A DNA stretch of 64,000 nucleotides, from positions 1,240,001 to 1,304,000 of the forward strand of contig FZPE01000001.1 in the NCBI GenBank assembly GCA_900188465.1. The letters are read 5' to 3'. Origin of the DNA: Micrococcales bacterium KH10 (GTDB lineage: Bacteria; Actinomycetota; Actinomycetes; Actinomycetales; Cellulomonadaceae). Made by a program: the position numbers and the translations under genes. The notes under the pieces are model-generated. The model made no database searches and was not told the DNA's origin. It was given only the letters and a program-made list of their open reading frames with translations. Below are positions 12,123 to 40,755 of the stretch, piece by piece (within the stretch, counting starts at the first letter, position 1; every line of letters begins with the position of its first letter).

Positions 12123-12200
<78 letters not shown>

Positions 12201-22772: not shown

Positions 22773-23852
22773 TTACTGCACGCTGCGACGCGCCCGGACG
22801 GCCTGCGCAAAAGTCCGCAGCAGATCGGCTGTGGTGTCCCAATCGATGCATTTGTCAGTGACCGATTGACCGTAGACCAGCCCGGACGGGGCGGGTTTCT
22901 GGTTTCCAGCGACGAGGAAACTCTCCATCATCACGCCGAAGATTCCCTGGTTGCCGCTTGCGATTGACTCAGCGAGTTCGCGAGCCACTTCAGCCTGGCG
23001 CACCTCGGACTTGTTGGAGTTGCCGTGGGAGGCATCAACGACGAGTCTCGGGGCGAGCCCTGCGGCAGCCGCGAGTTCATTGGCGGCGCGGATTGACTCG
23101 TCATCGTAATTGGGTCCGGTCGCACCGCCACGCAGAATAACGTGGCAATCCGGGTTGCCAGACGTCTCAACTGCTGCGGCTCGTCCCTGGTCGTCAATGC
23201 CGAAGAACACGTGCGAACTCGCGGCGGTGATGCAGCCGTCAACGGCGGCTTGGACGGAACCTTCGGTGGCGTTCTTGAAACCGACTGGCATGGACAATCC
23301 GGAGGCGAGCTGCCGGTGCACTTGGCTTTCGGGGTTACGTGCCCCGATCGCACCCCACGACACTGCGTCGGAGATGTATTGCGGGCTGGTGGGTTCCAGG
23401 AACTCGGTCGCGGCAGGCACGCCGGCCTCAAGCACGTCCAGCAGGACACGGCGGGCTAGGCGCAGCCCTGTGGTGATGTCGTGCGAACCGTCTAGGTGCG
23501 GGTCGTTGATTAGCCCTTTCCACCCGATCGTGGTGCGTGGTTTTTCAAAGTAGACCCGCATCACCACGACAAGATCGTCGCTCAGCTCTGGAACGAGCGC
23601 TGCCAACCGTTGCGCATATTCAACCGCGGCGTCAGGGTCGTGCACGGAGCACGGACCAACGACAACCACAAGGCGGTCGTCGCGTCCGGCGTGAACATCG
23701 CAGATCTCGTCGCGGGAGCGGCGCACGAGTTCAGCAGCGGCGTCGCTGAGCGGTTGATCAGCCAATACCTGCTCTGGTGTGGGCAGCGGCTCAAGGGCTC
23801 GAACGTGCACGTTCGAAGTGGTCTTCGGTGCGGCGTGGACAGTCATAGTCAT
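22773..23852 (-). CDS. aroF: 3-deoxy-7-phosphoheptulonate (DAHP) synthase, type I
   Basis: 359 residues. First step of the shikimate pathway: condenses phosphoenolpyruvate and erythrose-4-phosphate. The family motifs VGPCSVHDPDAA, RVYFEKPRTTIGWKG (PEP-binding), GFKNATEG and ASHGNSNK are all present, with the metal ligands in PCS, SHG and the late SF. The ATG at 23846, six bases inside, is as good a start as the one at 23852 because GGAATG precedes it. The gene lies behind an attenuator with an aromatic leader peptide. aroG is an equally common name. Confidence 0.93.
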   Translation of the reverse strand: MTMTVHAAPKTTSNVHVRALEPLPTPEQVLADQPLSDAAAELVRRSRDEICDVHAGRDDRLVVVVGPCSVHDPDAAVEYAQRLAALVPELSDDLVVVMRVYFEKPRTTIGWKGLINDPHLDGSHDITTGLRLARRVLLDVLEAGVPAATEFLEPTSPQYISDAVSWGAIGARNPESQVHRQLASGLSMPVGFKNATEGSVQAAVDGCITAASSHVFFGIDDQGRAAAVETSGNPDCHVILRGGATGPNYDDESIRAANELAAAAGLAPRLVVDASHGNSNKSEVRQAEVARELAESIASGNQGIFGVMMESFLVAGNQKPAPSGLVYGQSVTDKCIDWDTTADLLRTFAQAVRARRSVQ

Positions 23853-23932
23853 TCCATTTCATGTGGCTGGGACGTGGCCGCCAATCGGTGCCCTGATGCG
23901 CTGAATCGATCCGGAGCCGACTGACATGACGA

Positions 23933-24025
23933 AGGGCCCGGCACGTCGATAAGACGTGTCCAAGGCCCTGTGCGGCTCCGGGTGGATGGTGTCAGGCGCT
24001 CACCTGTATGGCTCCACCGGGAGCC
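23933..24025 (-). promoter_or_regulatory. Ribosome-dependent attenuator of aroF
   Basis: On the minus strand the segment GGCTCC (24020-24025) can pair either with GGAGCC at 24010-24015 or with GGAGCC at 23974-23979. Downstream lies a stable hairpin with outer arms AGGGCC/GGCCCT (23933-23938 and 23964-23969) and inner arms GACGTG/CACGTC (23942-23958), followed by a weak T-rich stretch: the terminator arm. Mutually exclusive stems next to a leader peptide with Trp, Tyr and Phe codons are the classic attenuation layout. The stems were found by eye, not folded. Confidence 0.7.
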
Positions 24026-24060
24026 TGCATAAAGCGCTGATACCATCGCGATCCGGTCAT
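23992..24060 (-). CDS. aroF leader peptide (22 residues, Trp-Tyr and Phe codons)
   Basis: A 22-codon frame starting MTGSRWYQRF and ending at TGA, 140 bases before aroF. Trp6, Tyr7 and Phe10 are the three aromatic end products of the pathway, so ribosome stalling here would report aromatic amino acid shortage. A TAGGAT hexamer (24069-24074) lies 8 nt before the ATG, so the transcript would start at or just before the leader gene. A comparable leader (aroR) precedes aroF in Corynebacterium glutamicum. The stop codon lies close to the alternative stems. Confidence 0.75.
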   Translation of the reverse strand: MTGSRWYQRFMQAPGGAIQVSA

Positions 24061-24084
24061 AGCGTCATATCCTAGCACCGCTAG

Positions 24085-25167
<1,083 letters not shown>

Positions 25168-25218
25168 CTATGTTGAAGTTTTGGGGTTCGAGTTGGTTAC
25201 GGTTCAGCGGATCACGTT

Positions 25219-26544
25219 CTAGCGACCAGTTCCACCGTAGACGATTGCCTCGTCCGATGAATCAAGTTCAAAAGCCGAGTGGACGGCGCGCACTGCCGAA
25301 TCCAGTTCTTCAGCGCGGGTGACCACCGAGATTCGGATCTCTGAGGTGGTGATCATCTCGATGTTGATTCCCGCGTCGCGCAGCGCGCCGAATAGCTTGG
25401 CAGAAACACCCGGACTGGACTTCATCCCCGCCCCGATCAGGGAAAGTTTGCCGATCTGGTCATCAAAGAGCAGCTCGTCAAAGCCGATCTCGCTGCGGCT
25501 CTTCGTGAGAGCCTCGATGGTCGCGGGGGCATCCGCCGTGGGCAGAGTGAATGAGATGTCGGTCAGACCGGTCCGGGCGGCAGAGACGTTCTGCACGATC
25601 ATGTCGATGTTGGCGTCCGCGTTCGCAACGGTTTCAAACAGCAGTGCCGCGGTACCGGGCACATCTGGCAGGCCGACTACGGTGATCTTCGCTTCGGTGC
25701 GGTCGTGTGCGACTCCCGAGATGATGGGTGCTTCCATGATGTCCTCGCTATCAGTCGAGTGGGAGGAAAGTTCAGCGTCCTCGGGCAGCAGACCTGGGAT
25801 CTCGCTGCCGGGCTTGTCAGTGACCAGAGTGCCGGGCTTGCCGGAGAAGGACGAGCGCACATGAATGGGCACTCGGTAACGGCGACCGTATTCAACGCAA
25901 CGCAGCGCCAAGATCTTTGCGCCGCTGGCTGCCATTTCCAGCATCTCAGCATAGGTGATCCGCGGTACCCGCCGTGCGGCGGGAACAATGCGTGGATCGG
26001 CCGTGAAGATGCCGTCGACATCGGTGTAGATTTCACAGACATCGGCGCCCAAGGCAGCAGCCAAGGCAACGGCAGTGGTGTCGGATCCGCCTCGTCCTAG
26101 CGTGGTGACGTCGTTGCTCTCCCGGTTGACGCCCTGGAAACCCGCGACGATGGCGACTCGTCCCTTATCCAGCGCTTTTTGGATGCGTCCCGGTGAGACG
26201 TCGATGATCTTGGCCTTGCCATATGCGGCGTCCGTGATCACACCGGCCTGCTGCCCGGTGTAGGACTGTGCTTTCACACCGAGTGAGTCGATCGCCATCG
26301 CCAGCAGCGACATCGAGATGCGCTCACCGGCAGTCAGCAGAATGTCCATCTCGCGCTGCGGCGGGACCGAGGTCAGTTCGTTCGCCAGGTCAATGAGCTC
26401 ATCGGTGGTGTCACCCATCGCCGAAACCACGACGACAACGTCGTTGCCCGCTAGCCGGGTCTGCGCGATGCGCCGCGCGACCCGGCGAATGCTCGCCGCA
26501 TCACTGACCGACGAACCGCCATATTTCTGGACGATAAGTGCCAC
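25219..26544 (-). CDS. lysC: Aspartokinase, with internal start for the beta subunit
   Basis: 441 residues. Phosphorylates aspartate, the entry to the aspartate family. Kinase motifs KYGGSSV (7-13), [14 protein letters not shown] and [18 protein letters not shown]. Two ACT domains fill the C-terminal 170 residues. GTG at 26544 is the start (GGAG eight bases upstream); the frame to 26595 adds non-family residues. At 25737 an ATG with GAGGAC in front opens [17 protein letters not shown], the position where actinobacterial lysC makes a separate regulatory beta chain of 172 residues. Confidence 0.94.
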
Positions 26545-26671
26545 AAGATACTCCGTGTCAAGGTCAGGCGGGTTGTAATCGCCAATAAAGTTCAATTACA
26601 GGTGAAGCCCAACGAACAACAGGGGACAGCCGATTCTAACGTTGTCCAGCTTCCCCATTACGTGACCTCCG

Positions 26672-30867: not shown

Positions 30868-30925
30868 GACCGAACCACTGACACTATCCACACTGTCGGC
30901 TTCGATCCATCGCAGAACACGCGAG

Positions 30926-31013
30926 GACCCCCCGCGCACCCGCCAGAGCCCACCTACCCTTGCTACCTTCCGGTCCTGGGGGAGTTCAGCAGGATGACGC
31001 CACACGAGGGGTC
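30926..31013 (-). ncRNA. ffs: Signal recognition particle RNA (small bacterial type)
   Basis: The minus strand carries the apical domain IV of 4.5S-type SRP RNA, CAGGACCGGAAGGTAGCAAG, followed by GGTGGGCTCTGGCGGGTGCG. The ends (CGACCCCTCG at the 5' side, GCGGGGGGTCC at the 3' side) pair as the long hairpin stem. About 88 nt. The position just upstream of dnaX and near tRNA-Ser is usual in actinobacteria. Exact ends are estimated from pairing. Confidence 0.88.
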
Positions 31014-31183
31014 GCTCAATAGGATAGCCCACATTGCGTAACGAGAAGAAACAACAGGCGACCGCAACAGCGGCGACGGGAGGCGACGAACCGCGGCATT
31101 TCAAAGCACAATATGGTGGACGAATCCACAGATAACGGACTCTCTCGCTTGCGCAACCACCCATAGTTTGGTTCTGTAGCAAC

Positions 31184-34015: not shown

Positions 34016-34101
34016 GGAGGATTCGCCTAGTGGCCTATGGCGCACGCTTGGAAAGCGTGTTGGGTTAATAGCCCTCAGGGGTTCGAATCCCCTATCCTCC
34101 G
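34016..34101 (+). tRNA. tRNA-Ser (GGA)
   Basis: Acceptor stem GGAGGAT/ATCCTCC, anticodon stem CACGC/GCGTG with loop TTGGAAA (anticodon GGA), a long class II variable arm (TTGGGTTAATAGCCCTC) and T arm GGGGTTCGAATCCCC. No CCA is encoded after the discriminator G. Confidence 0.95.
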
Positions 34102-34108
34102 CGAAATC

Positions 34109-40049: not shown

Positions 40050-40736
40050 GTGATTGGCATTCCGCTTTGGGCGCAACTTGCCGACCACACCAAAGGAGCC
40101 CAAGCACTCGTCACAGCGCAAACCATCCGCCTTCGGCAACTCGAAGTCACCAAACAGAAACTCGTCGATGCCTACCTTGAGGGCACACTGAGCGCTGAGG
40201 ACATCAAGGGCCGACGTCGCAGCATCGAGCAAGACATACATAACGCCACCAGGCTCATTGAACAGAGCAACCTCGACACCGCAACACTCAAACAACGCCT
40301 CGAGACCATTCTCGAACTACTGCGAGGTGCCCACCGTATCTACGAAGCCACACAGGGCGAGCAGAAGCGCTGGCTCAACAACGCCGTCTTTAGTGAACTT
40401 GCACTCGATGCGCTTGGCGATGATGACCCCAAGCGAACAAGAGACAGCCTCACCATCGTCGTCAAAGAAACCCTCACACCCGCCGTCGCAGCCGTCCTGA
40501 ATATCACCCACAACGCCCAGGACGCCGCCCAAAGCGACGAAAACGGCGGACAAGAAGTGGTACACGTTGAAACCAGAGGTGACGCCTCGGGCGACCTCAA
40601 GACGCCCCGGGACGCAAAAACCCCCGGCGAACTTTCGTTCACCGGGGGTTCCAACTTGCACAACTTGGCGGTAGCGGTGGGATTTGAACCCACGGTGGAC
40701 TTTCACCCACACACGCTTTCGAGGCGTGCTCCTTAG
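40050..40736 (+). pseudogene. C-terminal remnant of a large serine recombinase
   Basis: The frame encodes the C-terminal coiled-coil part of large serine integrases: RLRQLEVTKQKLVDAYLEGT, LSAEDIKGRRRSIEQDI, GEQKRWLNNAVFSELALD. The catalytic resolvase domain and most of the zinc ribbon are missing, and no usable start is near. The frame runs through the terminator and into the (oppositely read) tRNA-Ser, so the last about 40 codons are not protein. Remnant of a phage or other integrative element; the protease gene next door was probably carried in with it. Confidence 0.65.
40616..40650 (-). terminator. Terminator of tRNA-Ser(CGA)
   Basis: On the minus strand AACCCCCGGTGAACG-AAAG-TTCGCCGGGGGTT followed by TTT. 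It lies about 16 bases after the tRNA end and inside the recombinase remnant frame. Confidence 0.8.
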
Positions 40737-40755
40737 GCCGCTCGGACACGCTACC
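40666..40755 (-). tRNA. tRNA-Ser (CGA)
   Basis: Class II tRNA on the minus strand: acceptor GGTAGCG/CGCTACC, anticodon loop CTCGAAA (anticodon CGA, codon TCG), extended variable arm and T arm GGGTTCAAATCCC. CCA is encoded. It may mark the insertion end of the protease/recombinase patch. Confidence 0.95.

Follow-up and report, generated by a model that had tools for sequence, protein, structure and literature searches.

Among the regulatory systems described to date, the closest to the element analysed here appears, from the literature and from a probable homologue, to be aroR of Corynebacterium glutamicum, the transcript of which Neshat et al. 2014 reportedly described as leaderless. In the portions of the published accounts that concern it, aroR is reported to carry an F-Y-F leader (PMC11802643), and for C. 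glutamicum aroF there are reports of both short attenuated RNAs and higher transcription upon Phe limitation (PMC4046766, PMC11802643). As described there, aroR shares with our element a leaderless, short leader that contains aromatic codons and immediately precedes a class-I aroF, and the comparison made in the original prediction was apt in this respect (PMC11802643, PMC4046766); our leader nevertheless also has Trp (W-Y-x-R-F), and our element goes beyond these partial accounts in its identified partner segments (D, E and P, below) and in a distribution reaching far beyond corynebacteria. Also comparable are the trp attenuators (E. coli trpL and the actinobacterial trp leaders; Seliverstov et al. 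2005, PMC1262725), in which, as here, the position of the ribosome selects the helix, the leader codons are those of the end products of the pathway and the 2:3 and 3:4 helices are mutually exclusive. The leaderless cysteine attenuators of mycobacteria (Canestrari et al. 2020; cited in PMC13236596) likewise combine a leaderless short frame with operon control in Actinobacteria, but the description given in the citing paper sets them apart by their poly-Cys codons and by the other genes they precede. For Phe/Tyr operons, a 2005 survey of actinobacterial RNA elements found no conserved RNA structure (PMC1262725), aroF is absent from a list of eight attenuators of S. lividans (PMC8079986), and our literature search, which covered mostly open-access journals, turned up no report of an aroF attenuator in any actinobacterium but C. 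glutamicum.

Here we analysed the region ahead of aroF in a window of 64,000 nucleotides (the whole stretch of DNA studied) from Micrococcales bacterium KH10. The gene order on the minus strand is lysC, asd, leader, aroF, and the class-I DAHP synthase gene is present as a single copy in the host genome. The original prediction had placed an attenuator at 23933-24074; the features it named do lie there, but the full extent of the element is greater, as conserved partners are found further downstream, to 23882. The parts are as follows.

24069 to 24077, minus strand: extended -10 box TGCTAGGAT, from the sequence and the comparison of homologues.
23992 to 24060, minus strand: aroR-type leader peptide frame of 22 codons, MTGSRWYQRFMQAPGGAIQVSA and stop, kept ahead of aroF in relatives.
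24042 to 24047, minus strand: element 1, GATGGT, which pairs with P (co-variation).
24031 to 24045, minus strand: sensor codons TGG TAT CAG CGC TTT (Trp, Tyr, Phe), kept in homologues, with rare TAT and TTT.
24010 to 24025, minus strand: element L, GGCTCCCGGTGGAGCC, a self-hairpin inside the frame or the partner of A (pairing, folding).
23985 to 23990, minus strand: element P, ACCATC, 3' of the stop codon, which pairs with the Trp/Tyr codon region (co-variation).
23974 to 23986, minus strand: element A, TCCACCCGGAGCC, the partner of L when the ribosome stalls and of D when it is at the stop codon (co-variation).
23933 to 23969, minus strand: hairpin T, terminator-like, enclosed by the A:D loop and followed by the tail UUCGUCAU; folding predicts it in every state.
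23911 to 23923, minus strand: element D, CAGTCGGCTCCGG, which pairs with A (9 bp) or E (co-variation).
23882 to 23888, minus strand: element E, CCGATTG, which pairs with D (CAGTCGG) (co-variation).
22773 to 23852, minus strand: aroF, the controlled gene, a class-I DAHP synthase of 359 aa (PF00793, E 5e-85).

Folding of 24065-23850 on the minus strand, a check that the original prediction had proposed, gave a structure more stable than 200/200 shuffles (z -3.67). A covariance model, built from an alignment of homologues that includes the window sequence, gave a single significant match in the host genome (E 5e-21; runner-up E 4.5) and hence no second attenuator by this search. In the attenuator region the Rfam gathering score yielded no match to a leader family, T-box or riboswitch, and the permissive threshold only a chance match to a miRNA model (E 0.31). 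The other RNA genes of the window are ordinary: a small SRP RNA (30920-31016, minus strand), tRNA-Pro (12123-12199, plus strand) and two tRNA-Ser genes (34016-34102, plus strand; 40666-40755, minus strand). The genes lysC (aspartate kinase) and asd, at 24085-26595 on the minus strand, stand directly 5' of aroF, and genes of the aspartate pathway thus adjoin an aromatic one.

The leader frame anticipated ahead of aroF is in place on the minus strand, with its ATG at 24060-24058 and its TGA stop at 23994-23992, as are the closely spaced codons TGG (24045-24043), TAT (24042-24040) and TTT (24033-24031). The hexamer TAGGAT (24074-24069) precedes the leader ATG by 8 nt, as had been observed, and the extended -10 box containing it would put the transcription start at or next to this ATG, making the transcript leaderless. 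Support for a leaderless transcript comes from the finding that a TANNNT motif ends 6-8 nt 5' of the leader start codon in 55/55 non-redundant homologues (start codons being picked with the -10 box in view), about 2 being expected in shuffles; 39 of these 55 also have the TG of an extended -10 box. A sigma-70 scan of the region found nothing, the consensus being ill-suited to a GC-rich host. The loss of the W-Y and F codons in relatives had been named as an outcome that would speak against the prediction, and W, Y and F are instead all present in 25/25 leaders of the RWY type, 24/24 of the YWRF type and 4/4 of the RWYAYF type, even though the order of the aromatic residues and the length of the leader vary. 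Tyr is encoded by TAT 57 times and by TAC 11 times in the leaders, as against 6 and 277 times in aroF of the same genomes, and Phe by TTT 53 times and TTC 14 times, as against 15 and 409, where the aroF genes of the same loci serve as the reference and where these counts, like those for the start site, are descriptive because related sequences are not independent. Such rare Tyr and Phe codons would sharpen the sensitivity of the device, and constraint on the RNA may explain part of the bias.

The same leader was found upstream of aroF in relatives, as had been suggested. In the 36 genomes of the family searched for both, leader and aroF were both present in 28 and both absent in 8, meaning that the leader occurs in 28/28 genomes with aroF and in 0/8 without it. 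Matches to the covariance model, one copy per matching genome, were obtained in 97/150 genomes of the window's family, in 98/251 of a family around a presumed Mycobacterium genome, and in 46/395 genomes of the class. Homologues extend to mycobacteria, Dietzia, Tsukamurella, Streptomyces, Arthrobacter and others, with leaders of the form RWYWRFTxAPGGA in the Cellulomonadaceae-like family of the window (including Isoptericola and Puerhibacterium), RWYWRYEPAPGGA in Streptomyces, YWRFIEAPGGA in mycobacteria, Williamsia, Gordonia and Tsukamurella, RWYAYFSLALEGPA in Arthrobacter, Microbacterium and a propionibacterial MAG, and YFWFSRPAPGGS in Rhodococcus and Amycolatopsis. The probable Corynebacterium homologue (L263, in a 2.3-Mb genome of the family containing Mycobacterium; model match E 7.8e-7) has an F-Y-F leader and the parts L, A and T as in the window. 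The matches checked lie ahead of aroF with four exceptions, L186, L187, L188 and L189, which belong to genomes of 8-9 Mb from one family and in which the leader precedes a DAHP-synthase-like gene. In these four leaders Phe is the sole aromatic residue (for example MNRSFAFIEPAPGSRS in L186), and the one downstream gene examined with Pfam, that of L186, joins an incomplete DAHP-synthase domain to chorismate mutase. The attenuator thus seems, from the sequences, to follow the Phe/Tyr branch, and the agreement of its codons with the branch it precedes speaks for sensing.

Some loci deviate from this picture. Leaders of the Rhodococcus/Amycolatopsis/Nocardia type (L052, L058, L062, L065, L071, L074, L081 and L102) are without a U-tailed hairpin and have instead a hairpin CGAGCCGG/CCGGCTCG with no U-tract. 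One genome (G016; locus L030 and two further copies) has three class-I aroF genes and a leader match at one only, and L190 (738-852, reverse strand) has a degenerate leader, EQTRWYTTCVPAFGRAGQICT, ahead of a diverged aroF, a possible case of decay of the element.

The pairing that had been noticed, of GGCTCC with either of two GGAGCC copies, could be located in full: GGCTCC at 24025-24020 can pair with the near copy at 24015-24010 or with the far one at 23979-23974, and in the latter case 12/13 positions match between GGCTCCCGGTGGA (24025-24013) and TCCACCCGGAGCC (23986-23974). In the homologues 87.7% of the cells of L:A are paired; double-changed cells number 15, where shuffles give 4.1 (0/500), and the pairing outdoes every slid version; examples are GGCTCCGGTT opposite AACCGGAGCC (L263), TCGGCTCTG opposite CAGAGCCGA and TTGGCTCTG opposite CAGAGCCAA. 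We also applied a cognate-partner test, in which each of seven segments, chosen by script together with the aroF start codons, was compared with its own partner and with partners from other genomes in 5000 permutations. When shuffling was restricted to one leader type, which is not a full phylogenetic model, L:A, A:D and D:E each gave 0/5000, 1:P gave 71/5000 (0/5000 overall) and E:SD gave 342/5000, and no significant co-variation was seen for the other sixteen combinations of segments (423/5000 upwards). The D:E signal persists when the segments do not overlap. Since L:A and A:D have bases of A in common in 55/55 homologues, and A:D and D:E bases of D in 54/55, these helices are alternatives rather than a single static fold, and the competing stems originally proposed are borne out. 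Together the helices would form a relay reaching 23882, and the architecture would be nested and relay-like; we found no published description of such an architecture in the literature covered.

To model the states of the element we used partition-function folding of 54 non-redundant homologues, removing the RNA behind the ribosome edge, which was set 13 nt past the first base of the A-site codon, the usual footprint value. In these calculations, which describe equilibrium and ignore kinetics, L:A has 9.5 pairs and A:D 2.2 with the ribosome at W/Y, as against 0 and 7.8 with the ribosome at the stop codon; between the two positions L:A is lost in 46/54 homologues and A:D gained in 46/54. What switches in the model is therefore L:A versus A:D, the outer helix around T. 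A stall at the Trp or Tyr codons would leave L free to capture A, and D would then be available for E, whereas a stall at Phe would, as the model suggests, cover about half of L. A ribosome reaching the stop codon would block L:A, A would pair with D and T would be enclosed; without translation 1 would pair with P, L would fold on itself and A would again be free for D. The ON state would accordingly be L:A with read-through into aroF, and the OFF state the A:D/T compound structure with premature termination at or near T. Taking the leader, its codons, its start site and the alternative helices together, we consider it very probable that the element is a leaderless, ribosome-mediated attenuator of the aroR type that controls aroF through the supply of charged aromatic tRNA. 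Control at the level of transcription is favoured by the short RNAs and the response to Phe limitation reported for C. glutamicum aroF.

How A:D would lower aroF expression is a separate matter. The trp regions 1, 2, 3 and 4 can be equated with element 1/P, L, A and D, but, in contrast to trp, the 3:4 helix (A:D) encloses a separate terminator-like hairpin formed in every predicted state, there is no U-tract after D, an additional helix D:E lies downstream and the terminator is not displaced. A hairpin that could act as terminator had been predicted, and the hairpin stands (23969-23933, about 14 pairs in the window), but its role as a terminator subject to competition is not supported, as some 11 pairs are kept in either state among the 54 homologues. 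A scan of the region for a consensus U-tract terminator found none, with a consensus ill-suited to a GC-rich host and a tail of T, UUCGUCAU, that is too U-poor to satisfy it; across the homologues this tail has on average 4.4 T in 9.

It is possible, and we propose it only tentatively, that the mutually exclusive helices 1:P, L:A, A:D, D:E and perhaps E:SD transmit the location of a single ribosome over more than 100 nt in the downstream direction, past an undisplaced hairpin, and that they control aroF otherwise than by terminator/antiterminator exchange, perhaps in both transcription and translation. The standard exchange does not explain a reduction of expression by A:D because T is U-poor and does not compete with L:A, and A:D could not act on an RNA polymerase still at T, D being transcribed after T.

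That L:A directly prevents hairpin T, as in a classical attenuator of the trp type, is a rather doubtful alternative, although the parts occur in the same order, the mechanism is known for trp operons and the short attenuated RNAs of C. glutamicum aroF (PMC4046766) would agree with it. T does not overlap A, holds 11.1 pairs both at the W/Y stall and at the stop codon, and retains its pairing on stalling in 52/54 homologues; it is thus not displaced as in trp, given that it folds equally well inside the A:D loop whether the ribosome is stalled or not. The same kind of calculation does reveal the classical exchange in several proteobacterial aroF leaders. The leaders of class-I DAHP synthases in Bradyrhizobium and Mesorhizobium (L093, L097, L100, L101, L107, L110 and L111) and in other proteobacteria (L086 and L105), on which our literature search found no publication, have aromatic-rich frames of their own (for example SYFWYFSYDSSLAAGGSRSI) and a U-tailed terminator. 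In L097, L100, L107, L110 and L111, which resemble the window in this arrangement but differ otherwise in sequence, the segment CTGGCGG of the leader pairs directly with the 5' arm of that terminator. Upon stalling, the roughly 8 pairs of the terminator shrink to 0.5 or fewer in 3/9 of these leaders, are partly lost in 2 and are not in 4. Because T is unchanged, unlike in some of these proteobacterial leaders, the actinobacterial device differs from the textbook exchange.

Improbable, in our view, is a relay acting at the level of translation, with termination optional, in which A:D would release E for pairing with the aroF ribosome-binding site and stalling, by way of L:A and D:E, would make that site available. 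Co-variation of E with the SD region is seen across clades (13/5000), mycobacteria having GGTGCC:GGCACC and the RWYAYF type GGGTCC:GGACCC, for example, but the signal is weak within clades (342/5000), the predicted accessibility of SD shows no gain on stalling (0.430 stalled versus 0.445), the window has no clear E:SD pairing and the spacing between T and the start of aroF ranges from 49 to 188 nt. Sequestration by E:SD, with a signal only across clades and not supported by folding, was accordingly rejected. We rejected with more assurance, as very improbable, an arrest of the ribosome by the nascent peptide W-Y-x-R-F-x-x-A-P-G-G itself: its APGG stretch is strikingly conserved, but the conservation is explained by the RNA, as L:A persists where the peptide differs (APCGA, APLGA, ALEGPA, APKEP), and the aromatic order changes freely while the leader length varies. 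That we are dealing with a conserved small protein gene or structured RNA playing no part in aroF control is hardly credible, for although the evidence assembled here comes from sequence, the strict linkage to aroF, the aromatic codons, the alternative helices with compensatory changes and the counterpart studied in C. glutamicum (PMC11802643, as far as that account extends) all argue against it.

Knowing which parts of the element are active would be of practical use because replacement of aroR is already employed in strain engineering, according to the part of the literature that mentions it (PMC7356990). The nested hairpin and the relay constitute a testable departure from the textbook attenuator. 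More generally, these results point to one conserved feedback device acting where aromatic amino-acid synthesis begins, in much of the Actinobacteria, from corynebacteria and mycobacteria to Streptomyces and the Cellulomonadaceae-like genera.
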